From Candidatus Rhodoluna planktonica (GTDB lineage: Bacteria; Actinomycetota; Actinomycetes; Actinomycetales; Microbacteriaceae), in contig NZ_CP015208.1 of NCBI RefSeq assembly GCF_001854225.1, forward strand, positions 930,001 to 994,000: 64,000 nt of DNA, in the 5' to 3' direction. A program made the position numbers and the translations under genes. How positions within the stretch are numbered: the first letter of the stretch is position 1; each line of letters opens with the position of its first letter. Below are positions 14,963-55,186 of the stretch, one piece after another. The notes under the pieces were generated by a model that was not told where the DNA came from, ran no database searches, and was given only the letters and a program-made list of their open reading frames with translations.

Positions 14963-15937
14963 TCAGAAATCGAAATGCTGAGCTGCCTGGCCGAGACCAA
15001 TCAACCGTGCAGAACGGGAATCTTTGGTGTTGACCACTGGAGTTGCTGCTTGATCACCCAGGGCAAGCAACTCAACCTTTTCTAGGTGGCCCACAGCGAT
15101 TCTGCTGCGCAGGTGCGCTTGCATGCTTCTGGGTATCGAACTGAGGTTCTGCGTCGCCACAACTACGTGGATGTTAACGGAGCGCCCTCTCGCTAAAAAG
15201 TTTTCAAAATATCCTGCCGCTTTTGGATATTTGCTCAGCAAATGAGCGAATTCATCTACCAACACAAAAACTGGAGTGTGTTGAAAACCCAGCTCAAGTC
15301 CGCGTTGATGCATCAGACGCTCGAGCCGTTCAAGTTCTTGTTGCAGCGCAGCCAGGTTGTTTTCGGAAAAAGGGCCGGAAATTCTTGGCTGGTCTGAATA
15401 GAAAGCGAATGTGGCCGCCATCTTGAAATCAATCAGGACAAATTGAAATTGCTGTGGTTGCGCATAGAGCGACTTGAAGTAACGGTCGAGCAGAAAGCTT
15501 TTGCCACTGCCGGTCGGCCCAATAATTGCCAAGTGGGGGTAACCGCTCAAAAGGTTAATGCCAACGGGCTCTGCAGCAACAAAACCGATGTAGCCCAAGC
15601 CTTTTTCGCTGAGTAGAAAATTCGATTCAACCAATTTCGAGATTAGCTCTAGTCGTTTTGGGGAGTTTTCAAGAGCCAACAAAAAGGCCAGAACCTTTTG
15701 CTTGATCTCGGGCGGCCAAAAGAATGCCAGTCGCGACAACTTTTGATCACCAAGGTAAAAGTGTTTTCCGGAGAAACTAAGGTCTCCGAATGCCCTTGAG
15801 TAAGCCTGGAACTGCACATTTAGCAGCGCTGCCAGTAGTGAACCAAATACAGACGCGAATAGGAAAAACCAATTGCCCGAGCTGGCTGCCAAAACCGACC
15901 CCATGAGCATTGAAGGGATCAGCCAGGCATAGTTCAT
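14963..15937 (-). CDS. Small FtsK/EccC-like membrane ATPase
   Basis: 324-aa protein of the FtsK/SpoIIIE/EccC P-loop superfamily. Two N-terminal hydrophobic helices (about residues 3-45) are followed by a soluble linker and one ATPase domain: Walker A IIGPTGSGKS (about residue 140), the EccC-like VLIDFKMAATFAF segment, Walker B VFVLVDEFAHL, and VVVATQNLSSIP (sensor region). Full FtsK (about 800 aa or more) and EccC (several ATPase domains) are much larger; there is no C-terminal winged-helix gamma domain. No WXG100, relaxase or conjugation gene is near. Role unknown: a minimal secretion or DNA-pumping motor is possible. Confidence 0.75.
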   Translation of the reverse strand: MNYAWLIPSMLMGSVLAASSGNWFFLFASVFGSLLAALLNVQFQAYSRAFGDLSFSGKHFYLGDQKLSRLAFFWPPEIKQKVLAFLLALENSPKRLELISKLVESNFLLSEKGLGYIGFVAAEPVGINLLSGYPHLAIIGPTGSGKSFLLDRYFKSLYAQPQQFQFVLIDFKMAATFAFYSDQPRISGPFSENNLAALQQELERLERLMHQRGLELGFQHTPVFVLVDEFAHLLSKYPKAAGYFENFLARGRSVNIHVVVATQNLSSIPRSMQAHLRSRIAVGHLEKVELLALGDQAATPVVNTKDSRSARLIGLGQAAQHFDF

Positions 15938-15978: not shown

Positions 15979-15999
15979 ATAATTATCTGTGCATAACTT

Positions 16000-34595: not shown

Positions 34596-36353
34596 TTACT
34601 CAGCGTCGTTGCCGCTAGGAACCGGCATTGACTTCTGAACCTGCATCAAAAATTCGACGTTGCTCGAGGTCTCTTTCAAGCGACTTAGAACAAGTTCAAG
34701 AGCCTGCTGCTGCTCCAGTCCGGCTAGTGCACGGCGCAGCTTCCAAACAATCTTGGTCTCGTCTGGACTCATCAGCATTTCTTCTCGACGGGTACCCGAG
34801 GCATTCACATCGACAGCTGGGAAAATACGCTTGTCGGCTAGCGCACGAGACAGGCGAAGTTCCATGTTTCCGGTGCCCTTAAATTCTTCGAAGATGACCT
34901 CGTCCATCTTTGAACCGGTCTCAACCAAGGCAGTAGCCAGGATGGTTAGCGAGCCACCATCTTCGATGTTTCGAGCAGCACCAAAGAAGCGCTTCGGTGG
35001 GTACAGCGCTGAAGAATCAACACCACCGGAAAGAATACGGCCAGATGCTGGAGCGCTTAGGTTGTAGGCTCGGCCCAGACGGGTGATCGAGTCGAGCAGC
35101 ACAACCACATCGTGACCAAGCTCAACCAAGCGCTTTGCGCGCTCGATTGCCAGCTCAGCAACTGTGGTGTGATCTTCGGCCGGACGGTCGAAGGTTGAAG
35201 CAATAACTTCACCCTTTACGGTGCGCTGCATGTCGGTGACTTCTTCTGGGCGCTCATCAACCAAAACAACCATCAGGTGAACCTCAGGATTGTTGGTGGT
35301 GATTGAGTTGGCAATAGCCTGCAGCACCAAAGTTTTACCAGCCTTAGGTGGCGAAACGATTAGACCGCGCTGACCCTTACCGATTGGTGATACTAGATCG
35401 ATGATGCGGGTGCTGAGCTTGTTTGGCTCAGTTTCAAGGCGCAAACGGCTTTGCGGGTAAAGCGGAGTTAGTTTGCCAAATTCAACACGGGCACCGGCCT
35501 GCTCGACGGTAAGACCGTTGATCGAGTCGATTCGAACGATAGCGTTGAACTTCTGGCGACCAGCACCCTCGCCTTCACGAGGTTGGCGGATTGCTCCAAC
35601 TACTGCGTCACCCTTGCGCAGGTTGTACTTCTTTACCTGGCCGAGAGAAACATAGACATCGTTTGGCCCTGGCAGGTAACCGCTGGTGCGAACGAAAGCG
35701 TAGTTGTCTAGAACATCTAGAATTCCGGCGACTGGAACCAGAACATCATCCGGCGAGATTTCTGGTTCAACCTCGTCACGATCGTTGGCACGACGGTCAC
35801 GGTTGCGGCCGTAGCGGTCACGGTTGCGGTTCCGGTTGCGGTTGCGGTTGCCGCGCTCATCGTTGAAGTCGCGCTCACCGCGCTCGTTACCACGGTCGTT
35901 GTCACGAGTCTGAGTGTCGCGGGCCGAATCGGCTGACTCGCTGTCACCAGAGTCATTCGAATTGTTGTCTGAAGAATTGTTTTGGTTGCGGTTACGGTTG
36001 CGGTTGCGGTTACGGTTGCGGTCTGAGCGCTCTTGGCGTTCTTCGCCTTCACCGTTACGGTTGCGCTCTGATCGCTCTTCGCCCTCGAAGTTACGCTCAC
36101 TGCCCTGGCCGGCCGATTCGGCGGCCTTTGGTTCATTCGACTTTGACCCAGTCGAGTTAGTTTCGGTCGAAGAAGCTTGCGCTGCCGTTGACCCTTCGGC
36201 GGTTTTGGCACGGGCGCGGGTGGTCTTTTTGGCGGCAGGAGTTTCGGTTGCCGAAGTTGTTGATGTTGCCGAGTCTGCTGCTGGGGCCGCTGAATCTGAG
36301 GTCACGCGACGTGATTTACGAACAGGCTTGGTAGGTTGCTGGATTTCATCCAT
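34596..36353 (-). CDS. rho: Transcription termination factor Rho with Arg/Asn-rich insertion
   Basis: Hexameric RNA helicase that ends transcription; 585 aa, against about 419 in E. coli. The N-terminal 200 residues are low complexity: an Ala/Thr/Lys-rich part, then an Asp/Asn/Arg-rich part with runs of RN dipeptides (about residues 85-190). The RNA-binding domain (SGYLPGPNDVYVSL) and ATPase core follow: Walker A SPPKAGKT, LVDERPEEVTDMQR, and LLDSITRLGRAYN. The N-terminal insertion is characteristic of actinobacterial Rho, and its composition here is extreme. A 105-bp gap upstream separates it from thrB. Confidence 0.97.
   Translation of the reverse strand: MDEIQQPTKPVRKSRRVTSDSAAPAADSATSTTSATETPAAKKTTRARAKTAEGSTAAQASSTETNSTGSKSNEPKAAESAGQGSERNFEGEERSERNRNGEGEERQERSDRNRNRNRNRNRNQNNSSDNNSNDSGDSESADSARDTQTRDNDRGNERGERDFNDERGNRNRNRNRNRDRYGRNRDRRANDRDEVEPEISPDDVLVPVAGILDVLDNYAFVRTSGYLPGPNDVYVSLGQVKKYNLRKGDAVVGAIRQPREGEGAGRQKFNAIVRIDSINGLTVEQAGARVEFGKLTPLYPQSRLRLETEPNKLSTRIIDLVSPIGKGQRGLIVSPPKAGKTLVLQAIANSITTNNPEVHLMVVLVDERPEEVTDMQRTVKGEVIASTFDRPAEDHTTVAELAIERAKRLVELGHDVVVLLDSITRLGRAYNLSAPASGRILSGGVDSSALYPPKRFFGAARNIEDGGSLTILATALVETGSKMDEVIFEEFKGTGNMELRLSRALADKRIFPAVDVNASGTRREEMLMSPDETKIVWKLRRALAGLEQQQALELVLSRLKETSSNVEFLMQVQKSMPVPSGNDAE
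35780..36070 (-). repeat. Short tandem repeats encoding RN-dipeptide runs in Rho
   Basis: Two arrays of a 6-bp unit (variants of CGGTTG/CGGTTA on the plus strand), near 35817-35853 and 35983-36028, encode Arg-Asn runs in the disordered insertion of Rho. Such arrays can change length by slippage in frame. Confidence 0.75.
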
Positions 36354-45946: not shown

Positions 45947-46243
45947 CTATTTGTCGTCGCCTGAACTCTTCGGGTCTTCTGGCCGGAGGCCCTCATAAAT
46001 CTCTTTGCAGGTTGGGCAAACTGGAAACTTATCTGGATCTCGACCGGGTACCCAGGTTTTTCCGCAGAGCGCAACTACCGGGGTGCCTAAAACAGCCGAT
46101 TCGACGATTTTTTCTTTACGAACGTAGTGGGCGTAACGCTCGTGGTCGCCGGGCTCCATGTTTTGGATCTGCTCCTCAAGCAAAGTTCCGCCCGCTGTCT
46201 GTCCGCCAATCTTGTCGGCATCCAGGCTTGCTTCAAAATTCAT
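45947..46243 (-). CDS. DUF3039 family protein
   Basis: 98-aa conserved actinobacterial protein of unknown function. The family core is visible: HERYAHYVRKEKIVESAVLGTPVVALCGKTWVPGRDP then FPVCPTCKEIYE. The Cys residues (C near residue 60 and the CPTC pair near residues 75-78) suggest a zinc ribbon. Its ATG overlaps the stop of the HtrA-like protease gene (TGATG), so they are translationally coupled. No function is known to me. Confidence 0.88.
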   Translation of the reverse strand: MNFEASLDADKIGGQTAGGTLLEEQIQNMEPGDHERYAHYVRKEKIVESAVLGTPVVALCGKTWVPGRDPDKFPVCPTCKEIYEGLRPEDPKSSGDDK

Positions 46244-47451
46244 CAGTTCTCCAAATCGGCTGCGTTACCTAAGACTGCAGTCAAATCTATTTCTTTGCCG
46301 TCTCTGATTACGGTAACGGTAACTGTGGCACCGGCAGGTTCGTTTCTAACCGCAGCGGTGAGTTCGCTCGCCGAGGTAATGGTCTCGCCATTCAGTGCGA
46401 TCACGATGTCGCCAACTAATAGTCCGGCCTTTTCGGCTGCTCCCCCGGAGGTAAGTTCTCGCACTTCAGCACCGGTAGTAAAGGTGCTCTGTCCATCGGC
46501 GGCATCGGTTACGGCAGCCCCGAGTAGACCGTGGCTCGCCGCCCCGGTTTCGATAATTTCATCAGCGATACGTTTCGCAGTGTTACTTGGAATGGCGAAC
46601 CCGACACCGATGTTGCCTGATTGACCCGAGCTACCAGCCGAAGCGATAGCCACGTTGATGCCGACTAGCTGACCATTTTGATTTACCAGGGCGCCACCGG
46701 AGTTACCTGGATTGATTGCTGCGTCGGTCTGAATCACCTTCAGGCTGATTGCTCTTCCGGAGCCGGTGAAGAACTGCAGACCGCCAAAGCCATCAGAATT
46801 GTTTGGCACCTCAGCTGAAGCAACCTGAATTGTGCGGTTTAGAGCCGAGACAATTCCGTTGGTAACGGTGTTTGACAGGCCAAGCGGAGCGCCAATGGCA
46901 ACCACCGAGTCACCGACATTCACGGAATTTGAATCGGCAAATTCAATTGGAGTGAAGCTCGCGGCCGTTTCAATTTTTACGACGGCCAAATCATTGGTCG
47001 CATCAACGCCAACAATTGCAGCTTGATAGATACGGCCGTCAAAAGTTTTTACCTCAACTACCGGATCACTGGATTCGCCGCCTAGGGTCACCACGTGGGC
47101 GTTGGTCAGAACATAACCATCCGCAGAGAGAAATACTCCAGAGCCATTTCCAGCCGATCTGGCACCAGCAACCGAAAGGGTTACTACCGAAGGCGAGGCT
47201 ATCGTGGCAGCAGCGGTGACCCAGTTGACAGTCTGAGTGTTGTTCACGACGACCGGTGCTGGACGCGTGTAATAAGTGAACGCGGTGATACCCACACCCG
47301 CACCCACTGCTCCGCCGACTAGGGCACCAAGGGTGATTGCAGCGGTTCCGGTCAGAAACGTTGTGCGCTTAGCCATTTTTTGTTTGAAGTTAGGCTTTTG
47401 AACCTGGGCAGCCGGTGCGTCAAATAAGAATTGGCGATTGTAATCAGACAA
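46243..47451 (-). CDS. HtrA/DegP-like membrane-anchored serine protease with PDZ domain
   Basis: Trypsin-fold (S1C) envelope protease, 402 aa. A cytoplasmic N-terminal tail is followed by a membrane helix (about residues 30-58), the protease domain with His in LTNAHVVTLGG, Asp in DATNDLAVVKIE and Ser in NPGNSGGALVN, and a C-terminal PDZ domain (about residues 305-395, LTSGGAAEKAGLLVGDIVIALNG). Probably handles misfolded extracytoplasmic proteins. TTG start at 47451 with GAGAGG six bases upstream. Confidence 0.93.
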   Translation of the reverse strand: MSDYNRQFLFDAPAAQVQKPNFKQKMAKRTTFLTGTAAITLGALVGGAVGAGVGITAFTYYTRPAPVVVNNTQTVNWVTAAATIASPSVVTLSVAGARSAGNGSGVFLSADGYVLTNAHVVTLGGESSDPVVEVKTFDGRIYQAAIVGVDATNDLAVVKIETAASFTPIEFADSNSVNVGDSVVAIGAPLGLSNTVTNGIVSALNRTIQVASAEVPNNSDGFGGLQFFTGSGRAISLKVIQTDAAINPGNSGGALVNQNGQLVGINVAIASAGSSGQSGNIGVGFAIPSNTAKRIADEIIETGAASHGLLGAAVTDAADGQSTFTTGAEVRELTSGGAAEKAGLLVGDIVIALNGETITSASELTAAVRNEPAGATVTVTVIRDGKEIDLTAVLGNAADLEN

Positions 47452-47541: not shown

Positions 47542-48417
47542 CTAGTCGCAGCCAAAAACATCGGTTCGGCCAAGACAAAGTTGGTCAACCAAACGGACCA
47601 AGCCGCTACCCGTTTCAGCTGAGCTTTGTTCAAGCCCTTCGCCAACCTCGACCTCGAGGTGGGCATTAAGCACGATGTTGCCAACGAAATGCCGGGTTGA
47701 AACCGAGGCTACGGTGGCATAAACCGAGTAGGTAACTGCCACGGAAACCAAATAGGTTCCAGCCGAGACAAATCGGGTCGAAGTAGTTTCAGACTGGGTT
47801 ACGTAACCGTTAAGCTGCCACTGTTGGCCCACTGGCAGAAATTCAACCGTTGTTGATTTTCCAAGCAGCAAGCCGGTTCTCTGGTGCGCACTGGCATCGT
47901 GCGTGAAACTTACCCATTCACCAATCGACAAGACAGTACCGGCAGAACTCGAAATTGAAAATGCAGTCGGGTTGAAATCTTGTTCTTCTTGCTGCGCAGA
48001 GGTTGAGCCTGGCGTTGTGCTGGTTGAGATTTGGGTGACCTTGATTGGCTTTTTAGCTGGCGCCTTGGGTACGACCTTGGCAGTAGGTTTCTTGACCGGT
48101 GCTGGAATGCGATCGACCATAATTGGGCGAGCTGATTGTGGTAGCAGTTTCGGCTTTACCGCTGGCTTAGCGGTCGTTTTCGGTTTAGCTTGGGGAACCT
48201 GCTTAATCACAGTGGTTGCCGTAGCAGACCGCGCTGGTTGCACGCTACGTGCCGAGGCGCAGACGGTGACCGTTTGATTTGAAATTTTAGATTTTGCGGA
48301 CAACCCACTAGTGGTTGAAACACAATCGGCTGCCGAGGATGGCGAGGGCGTAAGCCAAAGCGTGGAACATAGCCCGAAAGCAATTGCCGAAATTGCCGAG
48401 CGCTTTTGCCAAAACAT
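47542..48417 (-). CDS. Secreted protein with Lys/Pro/Ala-rich linker, function unknown
   Basis: 291 aa. A cleavable signal peptide is likely (basic start, hydrophobic AISAIAFGLCSTLWL, cleavage after PSSAA). A Lys/Pro/Ala/Thr-rich stretch (about residues 60-135) could cross or bind the cell wall. The C-terminal part (about residues 150-270) looks all-beta, with TGLLLGKSTTVEFLPVGQQWQLNGYVTQSETTSTRFVSAGTYLVSVAVTYSVYA-type strands, reminiscent of PKD/Ig-like domains. Cys residues near the N and C termini could form disulfides. Not recognised as a named family. Confidence 0.75.
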   Translation of the reverse strand: MFWQKRSAISAIAFGLCSTLWLTPSPSSAADCVSTTSGLSAKSKISNQTVTVCASARSVQPARSATATTVIKQVPQAKPKTTAKPAVKPKLLPQSARPIMVDRIPAPVKKPTAKVVPKAPAKKPIKVTQISTSTTPGSTSAQQEEQDFNPTAFSISSSAGTVLSIGEWVSFTHDASAHQRTGLLLGKSTTVEFLPVGQQWQLNGYVTQSETTSTRFVSAGTYLVSVAVTYSVYATVASVSTRHFVGNIVLNAHLEVEVGEGLEQSSAETGSGLVRLVDQLCLGRTDVFGCD

Positions 48418-48450
48418 AACCAGAAATTAGCGAAATTGGGTCATCCGCGC

Positions 48451-48527
48451 CTGAGTTATCCACAGACAAGAAACTTCCGGGTTGTCCGCAGATCCGGGTT
48501 GTCCAGAGACCTGGGTGGTCCCGAGAA
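48451..48527. repeat. Four imperfect 17-bp repeats containing DnaA-box-like cores
   Basis: Repeats start at 48451, 48477, 48494 and 48511; the last three are in direct tandem. Their 9-bp cores are TTATCCACA (48456-48464, a perfect TTATNCACA box), TTGTCCGCA (48482-48490), TTGTCCAGA (48499-48507) and TGGTCCCGA (48516-48524). The second and third are one mismatch from the actinobacterial box TTGTCCACA. Confidence 0.6.
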
Positions 48528-48530
48528 AAG

Positions 48531-48560
48531 AAAAAGGTCCGATCGGAATCGGACCTTTTT
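48531..48560 (-). terminator. Terminator of initiator tRNA transcript
   Basis: A perfect 13-bp stem (AAAAAGGTCCGAT with ATCGGACCTTTTT, four-base loop) begins one base after the tRNA 3' CCA on the minus strand and ends in a T-run. Its symmetry means it can act in both directions. Confidence 0.9.
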
Positions 48561-48561
48561 A

Positions 48562-48638
48562 TGGTTGCGGGGGCAGGATTTGAACCTACGACCTCCGGGT
48601 TATGAGCCCGGCGAGCTACCGAACTGCTCCACCCCGCG
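48562..48638 (-). tRNA. Initiator tRNA-Met (CAT)
   Basis: 77-base cloverleaf with encoded CCA. The initiator hallmarks are present: a C1-A72 mismatch at the acceptor end (CGCGGGG against CCCCGCA) and three consecutive G-C pairs in the anticodon stem (GGGCTCATAACCC). T loop is TTCAAAT. Followed directly by a terminator. Confidence 0.97.
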
Positions 48639-48684
48639 GCGAAGTCTCGAGTATAGCACGGTTCGCAGGTTCATCTCCAGTCGG

Positions 48685-51567
48685 CTACCTTGAAGCAGCC
48701 AATGCATCCTCAATGGCTTTTTGCAGCTGCTCTTCAGCCTCGCCGTAGGCGGTCCAGTCTTGGTTAGCCAGCGCCTCTTGCTTAGCCACAATTGCTAAAC
48801 GCGCCCGCTCTAGCGCCGCCTTCAAGGCTGGGCTAACTTCAATTGGGCTCTCGCCAGCACCTGGATCGGTTGGTTCGGTCGGATCCGTTGGCTCGAGGCC
48901 GTCGCCGGCACTAGCTCCAGAGTCGCCGCCGAATAGAGAATCTAGAGCGGCATCAAGCGTGTCTTCGAAGGCAATCTTGTCACCGAAGGCGACCAATACC
49001 TTTTTGAGAAGCGGGAAGCTAGTTTCTCCAGTTGATTGGATGTAGACCGGCTGCACGTAAAGCAAGCCACCACCAACCGGCAGGGTTAGCAGGTTGCCCT
49101 TGAGCACCTTGGTTGATCCCTGGCTCAAGATGTTGAGCAAACGCGAAACCTCAGAGTCGGCATTGAAGGCGTTTTGGACCTGACCTGGACCCGGCACAAT
49201 GCTGTCCGATGGCAAGTTCAGCAATCGCAACTTTCCGTAGTTTGCCGAAACTTTGCCGGCCTGGTTTCCAGCATCACTGCTGGCTACCAAATAACCCTTC
49301 AGCACGTTTCTACTTGACTCCCCGGTAGAACGCGGGATGTAGGTGCTGTAAATCGAGAACTCTGGTGCAGTCGCCCCCGGAGTTTTCATGGTCAGGTAGT
49401 ACGGCGGCTGAAGTGCGTTCACCGCAGAAGCCGTGGTTGGGTCGTTCGGAGTCATCCAGGCGTCTTCTTGGGAGTAGAACGAACCCGGATCAGTCACGTG
49501 GTAGGCGCCCAAAATGGAACGCTGCAGCTTAAACAGATCTGCCGGATAGCGCACGTGAGCCATCAACTCGGCAGACATGTCTTTTACCGACTTCAAACTG
49601 CTCGGGAAGACTTTGCTCCAAGTTTTGAGAACCGGATCGGTGTCATCCCAGGCATAGAGCGTCACTTTGCCGTCGTAGGCATCGACGGTTGCCTTGACCG
49701 AGTTGCGGATGTAGTTGATGCTGCCGCGACTGAAGGTCTCTTGAGTGTTGCTGTCGGCAATTGCCGCAGCCAGATTGCTGGCTCGCGAATACGGATAGTT
49801 CGACGAAGTGGTGTAGCCATCGACTATCCAGAGCACTCGACCGTCTACGATAGCCGGATAGGCGTCGCTGTCGAGGGTGAGGTAAGGAGCCACGGCTGCT
49901 ACTCGTTCACGCGGAGTTCGGTCGTAAAGAATTTGCGACTGCGAGTTGATCGCGTCAGATAGCAGGATTTGCTCGCTTTGGAATTTCAACGCATAGGCCA
50001 AGCGAGCAAAAATGTTATCTAGTTTTGGACCACCATCGCCTTGGAAGGTGGTGTAGGTCTGGTTCGCTTCGCCCTCGCCAGCTGGATAATCAAGCTCACG
50101 AGGTTCAGCCGAAGCTGGTGCACCAACAATCGAGTAAGGTGGTGAGTTTTCACCAAAGTAGATTCTCGGTTCATAGTCCCCGAGTAGACCGTTCGATGGA
50201 ATACCCTGCTGCAAGAACACTGGCTGACCCTCAGTTGACCGCTGATTTCCGAAGGCGGCAACCACACCGTATCCGTGGGTGTAAACAATCACGTTGTTGT
50301 ACCAAGATTGGGAATCCCCCAAACCGGCCTGGTTTAGTTCTCGGGTGGCAATGACGGTGTCTTGAGTCTTGCCATCGATTGTGTAGCGGTCTACATCGAG
50401 GTGGGTCTGGAAGCTGTAGTACTGCTTGTACTGCTCTAACTGCTTGAACGAGGCTGAGACTAGCGCCGGGTCAATTAATCGAATGTTTGCAGTGGTTTGC
50501 GCGTCGGCTCGAAGTGCACCAGCTTCGGCATCCGTGGTTGCCGCGTATTCGATTACTTCAACTTTGTCGAGGCCGTAAGCCGCACGGGTTGCATCGATGT
50601 TGCGCTTGATAAATTCGGCCTCTAGGGTGCGCTCGTTTGGTACAACCTGAAAAGTTTGCACCACCCAAGGGTAAAGACCACCCAAAACAATGGATGAGAT
50701 AACCATCAATGCGGTTCCGAGAATTGGTAGTCGCCACTTGCCGATAACTGCGGCAAATAAAAACAGGATTGCGACGACAGCCGAGATTAGAGCCAAGATT
50801 TGGAAACCCGGGATAACAGCGTTTACGTCTTTGTAGGTGGCGCCGGTAAACAGCCCAGCACTTGATGTCATGGTCGCATACTGGTCGAGCCAAAGTGAAA
50901 CACCTTGAACTAGAAGGTAGAGAGCAGCCGTAACGGCGATTTGGATTCGAGCCGCCTTTGACACCCTGGTTTCACGGCCGTTGAAACGGATGTTGCCGTA
51001 AACCAGATGAATTGCTGCAGCGACCAGGGCTGCTATGAAAAGTGCTGCCGAAACGTAGCTGACCAAGCCGGCATAGAACGGCAAATCAAAAAGGTAAAAG
51101 CTAATGTCCAGGCCAAATTGGGGATCGGTCTGGCCCGTCTCGGTGCGGTTAAGCCAAGCCAAAGCGGTTGCCCACTCGCGCGATGCGGCCAAACCACCCA
51201 TGACTCCGAGCACTGCAGGCAAAGCCCACATGATGACCTTGCGCAATTGGTCTAGGGCCTGACGGTAGACCCCAAATGGGTCGCGCTCATCTGGGAACTT
51301 TAGATAAATTGGCCGGGTCTTGAAGGCAATAAAGAAGCTGCCCCAGACCATTGCTGCCATCAGAATTGCAGCTGATGCGAACAAACCTACTCGGGCGGCA
51401 ATCTCGGTGGTGAAGACCTCGTTGTAACCCAATTGGCTAAACCAAAGCAAGTCGGTGTATAGACCCGATGCGCCAAGCAGCGCTGCGCCGACCGCAACCA
51501 CTATCGAAATAGCGATTGAAGCTGGGCTTGGTTTTTTGAATACTGGCGGAGTTAGCGGGGTAGTCAT
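48685..51567 (-). CDS. UPF0182 family large membrane protein
   Basis: 960-aa protein of the UPF0182 (COG1615) family, widespread in Actinobacteria and of unknown function. About seven hydrophobic helices occupy the first 310 residues (starting SIAISIVVAVGAALLGASGLYTDLLWFSQLGY). A very large outer domain follows (about residues 320-870, including LNNILSQGS-like and YVQPVYIQ segments). A Pro/Thr/Asp/Glu-rich spacer (about residues 890-915) and a C-terminal helix (ALKAALERARLAIVAKQEAL) end it. Starts 18 bp after the PDZ-Lon-like protease gene, suggesting co-expression. Confidence 0.92.
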   Translation of the reverse strand: MTTPLTPPVFKKPSPASIAISIVVAVGAALLGASGLYTDLLWFSQLGYNEVFTTEIAARVGLFASAAILMAAMVWGSFFIAFKTRPIYLKFPDERDPFGVYRQALDQLRKVIMWALPAVLGVMGGLAASREWATALAWLNRTETGQTDPQFGLDISFYLFDLPFYAGLVSYVSAALFIAALVAAAIHLVYGNIRFNGRETRVSKAARIQIAVTAALYLLVQGVSLWLDQYATMTSSAGLFTGATYKDVNAVIPGFQILALISAVVAILFLFAAVIGKWRLPILGTALMVISSIVLGGLYPWVVQTFQVVPNERTLEAEFIKRNIDATRAAYGLDKVEVIEYAATTDAEAGALRADAQTTANIRLIDPALVSASFKQLEQYKQYYSFQTHLDVDRYTIDGKTQDTVIATRELNQAGLGDSQSWYNNVIVYTHGYGVVAAFGNQRSTEGQPVFLQQGIPSNGLLGDYEPRIYFGENSPPYSIVGAPASAEPRELDYPAGEGEANQTYTTFQGDGGPKLDNIFARLAYALKFQSEQILLSDAINSQSQILYDRTPRERVAAVAPYLTLDSDAYPAIVDGRVLWIVDGYTTSSNYPYSRASNLAAAIADSNTQETFSRGSINYIRNSVKATVDAYDGKVTLYAWDDTDPVLKTWSKVFPSSLKSVKDMSAELMAHVRYPADLFKLQRSILGAYHVTDPGSFYSQEDAWMTPNDPTTASAVNALQPPYYLTMKTPGATAPEFSIYSTYIPRSTGESSRNVLKGYLVASSDAGNQAGKVSANYGKLRLLNLPSDSIVPGPGQVQNAFNADSEVSRLLNILSQGSTKVLKGNLLTLPVGGGLLYVQPVYIQSTGETSFPLLKKVLVAFGDKIAFEDTLDAALDSLFGGDSGASAGDGLEPTDPTEPTDPGAGESPIEVSPALKAALERARLAIVAKQEALANQDWTAYGEAEEQLQKAIEDALAASR

Positions 51568-54113: not shown

Positions 54114-54166
54114 TTTAGCTGTGGAAAAGCCCGGCGAGGCTAAACGAAATTCGACACAATTTCGCC

Positions 54167-55186
54167 ATGGTGACAAGAATCAATCCCAGCCTTCCGGCGC
54201 TTTGGCGAGACCCAAAGAACATGCAAATTGGTTACGGCAAAAAGGCTGTCCAACTGGGCAACCTCAGCCTCTCGCAAGAGAAACTGGTAGCCGCTCTTTT
54301 TATTGGCGTAGCCGACAGCCAGTTTGATCTGATTGCTCAGCAAACCGGAAATTCAATTACCGAATCAACCGAACTTCTAACCGCTCTTGAAAAAACGCTA
54401 ATTCGAGACCGTGATCGAAATTTCCAACTCTCCCCCGAACTTGTCTCCAGCATGTTTGCCGAGATTAGCCGCGCAAACCTAGAACATAACCAATCTGGCA
54501 ACCAAATAGTTGCCATGCGCGCAACTCGAAAAATATTCATCAACGAACTAACTGCATCCGGCTTACTGGCGGCCCAAGCACTGGCAAGTTGCGGTATCGG
54601 TCAAATATTCACTGGCGATCGAGAATTAGTTTCAAAAGCAGACTTAGGGCCCTGCGGTTATCCTGCGCAGCTTCTTGGCAAACCGCGAATTACCGCCACG
54701 CGCGACCTGCTTAGCGCATCTCCCAATCAAACTCAGATTTCTTTCAACGCATCCGTTTCAGAAAATGTCGATGCCGCGCTGCTCTTGGGTCAAGAAATAG
54801 TTGATCCAAGCAGCTATCAAAATTTTCTCAGCAGCGATACCCCGCATGCGGCGCTAATTTTCAAACAGGATGGCCTGTGGTTTTCGGGACTGGTTAGACC
54901 CGGGCTAACCCCTTGCCTGAACTGTTATCTCTCGGCTCAACACGATGAAGATTCGGCTTTCCCCACCCTTGCCAGTCAGTTGGTCAACTCAAAATCTCGG
55001 CTTGACGACACCGCATCCAGGTTATTTGCAGCGGCAATAGCTACTCGACGACTGCTTCAATATCTCGACTCTGAAACCACCGGCGCCACGTTTGAGTTAG
55101 GGGCGTTGCAGTTCAACTATTCGACGCCCGAGATTGAAGCATTCGATTGGAAATTCGCCCATAATTGCACTTGCAATTTCAGCTAG
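54167..55186 (+). CDS. Degenerate E1/ThiF-like protein resembling TOMM cyclodehydratase partner
   Basis: 339 aa. The N terminus (INPSLPALWRDPKNMQIGYG) matches the pattern of actinobacterial 'cyclodehydratase/ThiF-like' proteins. A Rossmann-like stretch (about residues 130-160, ASGLLAAQALASCGIGQIFTGD) lacks the usual GxGGxG loop, so adenylation activity is doubtful. Two Cys pairs, TPCLNCYL (near residue 249) and NCTCNFS at the very C terminus, could hold a structural zinc as in E1 enzymes. No YcaO or precursor peptide gene is adjacent. Follows the DUF2342 gene by 73 bp. Confidence 0.68.
   Translation: MVTRINPSLPALWRDPKNMQIGYGKKAVQLGNLSLSQEKLVAALFIGVADSQFDLIAQQTGNSITESTELLTALEKTLIRDRDRNFQLSPELVSSMFAEISRANLEHNQSGNQIVAMRATRKIFINELTASGLLAAQALASCGIGQIFTGDRELVSKADLGPCGYPAQLLGKPRITATRDLLSASPNQTQISFNASVSENVDAALLLGQEIVDPSSYQNFLSSDTPHAALIFKQDGLWFSGLVRPGLTPCLNCYLSAQHDEDSAFPTLASQLVNSKSRLDDTASRLFAAAIATRRLLQYLDSETTGATFELGALQFNYSTPEIEAFDWKFAHNCTCNFS

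Follow-up and report, generated by a model that had tools for sequence, protein, structure and literature searches.

The analysed stretch of the Candidatus Rhodoluna planktonica chromosome, referred to here as the window, comprises 64 kb (C1:930001-994000) of a 1.42-Mb single-contig genome. The locus of interest is transcribed from right to left on the minus strand and begins with a gene encoding a UPF0182 membrane protein (48685..51567), followed by a tRNA-Met (CAT) gene (48562..48638), which is the initiator tRNA of an earlier note on this DNA, and the intrinsic terminator of the tRNA gene (48531..48560). The next gene encodes a predicted secreted protein, P291 (47542..48417, start codon at 48417), and is followed by an HtrA-type trypsin/PDZ protease (46243..47451). 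A 144-bp gap (48418-48561) between P291 and the tRNA gene holds a set of repeats, which, given the right-to-left gene order, sit past the tRNA terminator and ahead of P291. Rfam analysis of the repeat region returned the tRNA as its sole match. The synteny UPF0182, tRNA-fMet, terminator, P291 and HtrA is retained throughout the genus, and the terminator keeps its position in relatives.

The gap contains four imperfect 17-nt units on the plus strand, at 48450..48466, 48476..48492, 48493..48509 and 48510..48526. Their spacings are 26, 17 and 17, so that units 2 to 4 lie in direct tandem, and Tandem Repeats Finder (TRF) reports a 17-nt period at 48477-48526. The self-match of the gap at lag 17 is 22; across 2000 dinucleotide shuffles it averaged 6.3 and never exceeded 14 (p ~0.0005). 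The earlier description of four such units, three of them in tandem, agrees with these results, as does its account of their DnaA-box-like cores: the core of unit 1 is an exact TTATCCACA, those of units 2 and 3, TTGTCCGCA and TTGTCCAGA, are each one base from TTGTCCACA, and the core of unit 4, TGGTCCCGA, is more divergent. Units 1 and 2 differ at 5/17 positions and all five differences are transitions, where the note had described them as mostly so. Short tandem repeats are also found within reading frames elsewhere in the window, at 1641-2072 and 35821-36022, the latter falling in the N-terminal RNRNRN-type region of rho.

Conservation was examined in 59 tRNA-to-P291 spacers taken from 67 genomes of the genus. 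A motif, TGTGNATAACT, recurs directly past the tRNA terminator in these spacers. When the promoters are aligned on the first ATG of P291, without use of the box and with four starts set by eye, TGTGNATAACTY appears at -47 and TANNNT at -12 to -7, and there is no conserved -35 hexamer. With up to two mismatches, TGTGNATAA lies 46–48 nt ahead of the P291 start codon in 55 of the 59 spacers; some relatives have a weak or absent site (L080, L073). In the window this conserved box is the core of unit 1 (48456..48464, minus strand), which reads TGTGGATAA on the strand of the downstream gene and TTATCCACA on the plus strand, and which spans -47 to -39 relative to the start codon. A -10 element, TAATTT (48424..48429, minus strand), is predicted 35 nt past the start of the box from the genus-wide start-codon alignment and would form a leaderless promoter. 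The box abuts the -35 position at a fixed spacing and the -35 element itself is missing, which is the arrangement of a class-II activator-dependent promoter. The site also matches the DnaA-box consensus, being exact for TTATCCACA with TTATNCACA as the genus consensus.

When scored with the genus box matrix, unit 1 (20.2) is the best of the ~128,000 positions in the window, and it is the sole composite match there with an exact core, a -10 element and a start codon. Units 2 (10.1) and 3 (9.9) reach about half of this score and unit 4 (-3.1) falls below zero. Counterparts of units 2 to 4 are absent from the 58 other spacers, save for a single additional site in L099 and another in L101. They appear to be essentially private to this genome among the relatives compared, the nearest of which share only ~75% of their UPF0182 residues, and they look like local, decaying copies of the box. 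Conservation among relatives that keep the flanking genes, which the earlier note had proposed as a check, is thus found for unit 1 and not for the rest. Units 2 to 4 could also be read as working accessory sites by which this species amplifies or tunes P291. That reading draws on the retention of GGACAACC in units 2 and 3, which rank in the top 13 positions of the window, but unit 4 has decayed, the 26/17/17 spacing is out of helical phase and relatives lack the units, and we consider it unlikely. The note had also proposed a regulatory site for the secreted-protein gene; the part that stands is a DnaA-box-like site conserved upstream of P291, while the four-unit cluster as a functional unit is unsupported, given that conservation is confined to unit 1 and that the score of unit 4 lies under background.

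The same observations bear on replication-related roles. Near-DnaA-boxes in the window number 19 against 22 expected and show no excess, so the signal is local, with three of the 19 packed into 52 bp at the repeat site. A DnaA-titration cluster resembling datA beside the tRNA gene would account for four DnaA-box-like units in 77 bp adjoining a tRNA, and datA of E. coli likewise lies in a tRNA context (PMC10950094). This explanation is nevertheless highly improbable, since the site offers one strong box and no conserved cluster, and far better clusters occur in the same genome at oriC and in the rplI-dnaB gap. The rplI-dnaB gap (G000:C1:1795-2005, L102) contains five exact TTATNCACA boxes directly upstream of dnaB, the replicative helicase gene, and is as dense as oriC. 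An origin at the repeats was rejected, as the note had anticipated: the repeats are not beside dnaA or dnaN and contain one exact box followed by unconserved units, and the origin in the dnaN-dnaA gap is located at C1:1409000-1409350, ~0.43 Mb away. Control of the initiator tRNA, which had also been suggested, is unsupported because the cluster is 3' of the tRNA terminator and the predicted promoter of the tRNA gene lies at its opposite flank, around 48650-48679. The earlier reading was too narrow, and the interest of the locus is one conserved box and its regulon rather than the tandem cluster.

The box recurs at other promoters of this genus of freshwater bacteria. The composite box-N25-TANNNT-N6-ATG, with 25–27 nt between the box and TANNNT, gave 57 matches in the 67 genomes against three for the reversed control, and 49 against one when the ATG was omitted. 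Apart from P291, the genes preceded by composite matches encode prepilin peptidases, S8 proteases and secreted Gly-rich proteins that carry a membrane segment at the C terminus. In a matrix scan, tadV has a composite score of at least 15 in 24 of 30 loci with 47–48 nt from the box to the start codon, and tadA has a box in all 30 loci, 13 of them scoring at least 15, at a variable spacing of 46–69 nt; there were no off-target matches in ~178 kb of the same strand. In Actinobacteria tadV is not linked to the remaining tad genes (PMC4322843), so the tadV and tadA boxes are not one operon counted twice. In the genome studied here, boxes are found ahead of the TadA-TadB-TadC-Flp operon, cpaB, the gene preceding cpaB and a Gly-rich adhesin, and tadV carries the variant box CTGTTAGTAACTTC. 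The sequence TTATNCACA is rare in this genome, with 36 occurrences in 1.42 Mb. A ThiF-like gene also starts in the window at 54167, and a box-like CTGTGGAAAAG (54120-54128, plus strand) precedes that start by exactly 47 nt. Similar ThiF-like genes in another Rhodoluna (L128) and in another family (L296) have a box at an equal distance, and this gene may therefore be a second member of the regulon in the window.

The first gene of the DNA-uptake operon, comEA, carries the box in the opposite orientation. With at most one mismatch, the inverted box TTNTNCACA is found at about -59 in 40 of 46 genomes, compared with a mean of 0.46 and a maximum of four in shuffled sequence. A leaderless -10 element is present in 45 of the 46, a count for which start codons were chosen partly by the presence of that element. 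A forward-strand scan of the comEA and comEC regions identified no box, the comEA site being inverted. One element thus lies upstream of unlinked tad and com genes, the pattern of a Tad/competence regulon. At promoters of comEA and of Gly-rich adhesins (e.g., L219, L229, L106 and L216), the box and the -10 element are separated by an inverted repeat that ends in TTTTA. It looks as though the preceding gene had its terminator built into the promoter, the run of Ts supplying part of the -10. The window also contains TTATGCACAG (15988-15996), which occupies -59 to -50 relative to the start, at 15937 (minus strand), of an FtsK/SpoIIIE-like ATPase gene. This position matches that of the inverted comEA box; a hairpin separates box and start, and the -10 is weak. 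Rhodoluna lacicola is naturally transformable in the dark, and comEC is reported to be more abundant in the dark in R. lacicola and A. photophilum (PMC11577799).

Pfam and NCBIfam provided no direct name for P291 itself. Its family features a PKD domain, detected in 15 of 26 relatives, and four invariant cysteines. The protein is a probable secreted partner of the surface apparatus that serves Tad pili and competence.

The spacing of box, -10 element and start codon is enriched across other Actinomycetales as well, with a clear peak. The TGTGGAYAAC pattern matches 95 of 396 genomes of the order and the reversed control four, and when the gap may range from 10 to 40 the total length is 49–52 in 94 of 150 among the matches listed against 13% expected; the genomes are phylogenetically related, so that neither these order-wide statistics nor the box counts are independent, and the p value of the length peak is overstated. 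The downstream genes include prepilin peptidase, a family resembling the gene before cpaB, short lipoproteins and RadC, and also DUF222/HNH, WXG100-like and FHA-domain proteins. Because of the latter three groups, the element outside Rhodoluna may be broader than a Tad/com regulon. Several DUF222/HNH genes have the box at -47 (L347, L349, L357, L373, L376, L379 and similar), and by eye their promoters contain LexA- or PafBC-looking sequences before the -10 element, which suggests combined control by DNA damage and the box element. These matches resemble PafBC/LexA-controlled actinobacterial promoters in having such a sequence, in some cases, between the box and the -10, but the box sits further upstream; no LexA- or PafBC-like sequence was seen by eye at the Rhodoluna Tad/com promoters.

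The breadth of the order-wide set, which takes in DUF222, RadC, WXG100-like and FHA genes, would fit an element that belongs generally to the upstream region of certain leaderless promoters and is touched by RNA polymerase or some housekeeping factor instead of a pathway regulator. We regard this as quite unlikely: in Rhodoluna the site is rare (a single composite match in 64 kb, beside the low genome-wide count of TTATNCACA given above) and is found mainly at Tad, com and secreted-protein genes, and the inverted box of comEA would be unusual for a contact of RNA polymerase. The explanation that we favour, and judge likely from the sequence comparisons, is that the box is an activator site of class-II type, belonging to a Tad-pilus/competence regulon that includes P291. 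An activator would bind the unit 1 box at -47 to -38, adjoining RNA polymerase on its upstream side at the leaderless P291 promoter. This would be an asymmetric protein, either DnaA or one with a DnaA-like site, that reads CTGTKGANAACT; once bound it would contact RNA polymerase, replace the missing -35 element and yield leaderless transcripts. The protein would act in the forward orientation at -47 and, at comEA, inverted and approximately one helical turn further up (-59). The genus-wide set of sites would jointly control the assembly of the Tad (Flp) pilus, prepilin peptidase and secreted surface proteins together with DNA uptake through comEA, and through comEC by its position, so that the targets would be expressed together and serve DNA uptake and surface attachment. 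Units 2 to 4 are proposed to be recent, species-specific tandem copies that have mostly decayed, and units 2 and 3 may provide weak accessory binding at most.

Whether the activator is DnaA itself, so that the pilus and competence genes would be read out from the replication initiator, is a tenable suggestion that we lean against. The promoter motif resembles the oriC boxes of the same genus (DnaA-box consensus TTATNCACA or TTWTNCACA) in its core, asymmetry and flanks, with a similarity of 10.05 that none of 20,000 column shuffles reached, and many comEA boxes match TTWTNCACA. DnaA is also the only PF08299 protein in the genus genomes; no second protein with a DnaA domain was found in them, the few genomes with two hits being fragmented MAGs. 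DnaA is moreover a known transcription factor that acts as an activator or repressor (PMC8203912). The regulon sites nevertheless differ significantly from oriC sites at positions 3 and 6, the latter having A27 C7 G23 T52 in the regulon against A12 C22 G2 T63 at oriC (p ~6e-7). The variant TGTGGAGAA (TTCTCCACA) is found in 16 regulon sites and in none of the oriC TGTG boxes, and at the free position N, C is preferred at exact P291 sites and G at oriC. DnaA as the binder is possible but unproven, because the site preference departs from that of the genus oriC boxes, and other proteins with an asymmetric site are possible as well. Compared with DnaA-regulated promoters, the box here differs in its fixed, class-II-like leaderless position and in its tolerance of TTCTCCACA. 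The target set of Tad/com and secreted-protein genes was not found described for DnaA in the portions of the literature examined.

Competence regulons of other bacteria have boxes of their own, namely the ComK box, the CIN box and CRP-S sites. These resemble the present case in that one short element is common to pilus, prepilin peptidase and comEA/comEC genes, but their sequences are unrelated to the Rhodoluna box. A parallel in gene content is the Flp/Tad-dependent transformation of Micrococcus luteus, for which Tad pili are essential and which likewise involves tad genes and comEA/comEC with an unlinked tadV; the sections of that report examined here mention no promoter element common to its tad and com genes (PMC4322843). 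A ComK cascade is absent from M. luteus, and the regulator of its competence is reported as unidentified (PMC4322843, PMC12849477), as is reported for the natural-competence regulator in Actinomycetota in general (PMC12849477). We found no prior description of the box sequence or of an actinobacterial Tad/competence regulon in the open-access literature, which does not prove its absence.

A more specific proposal, which we consider speculative and rather improbable on present comparisons, is that natural competence and Tad pili in Rhodoluna have DnaA as their class-II activator, that this may extend to other Actinomycetales, and that the P291 box marks one of the promoters under DnaA. If this were true, DNA uptake and surface attachment would follow ATP-DnaA and the replication state of the cell. 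In a genus capable of natural transformation, an element that comEA, tadA and tadV have in common with genes for secreted surface proteins can be used as bait for the competence regulator, and the same element offers a direct test of a link between replication control and DNA uptake.
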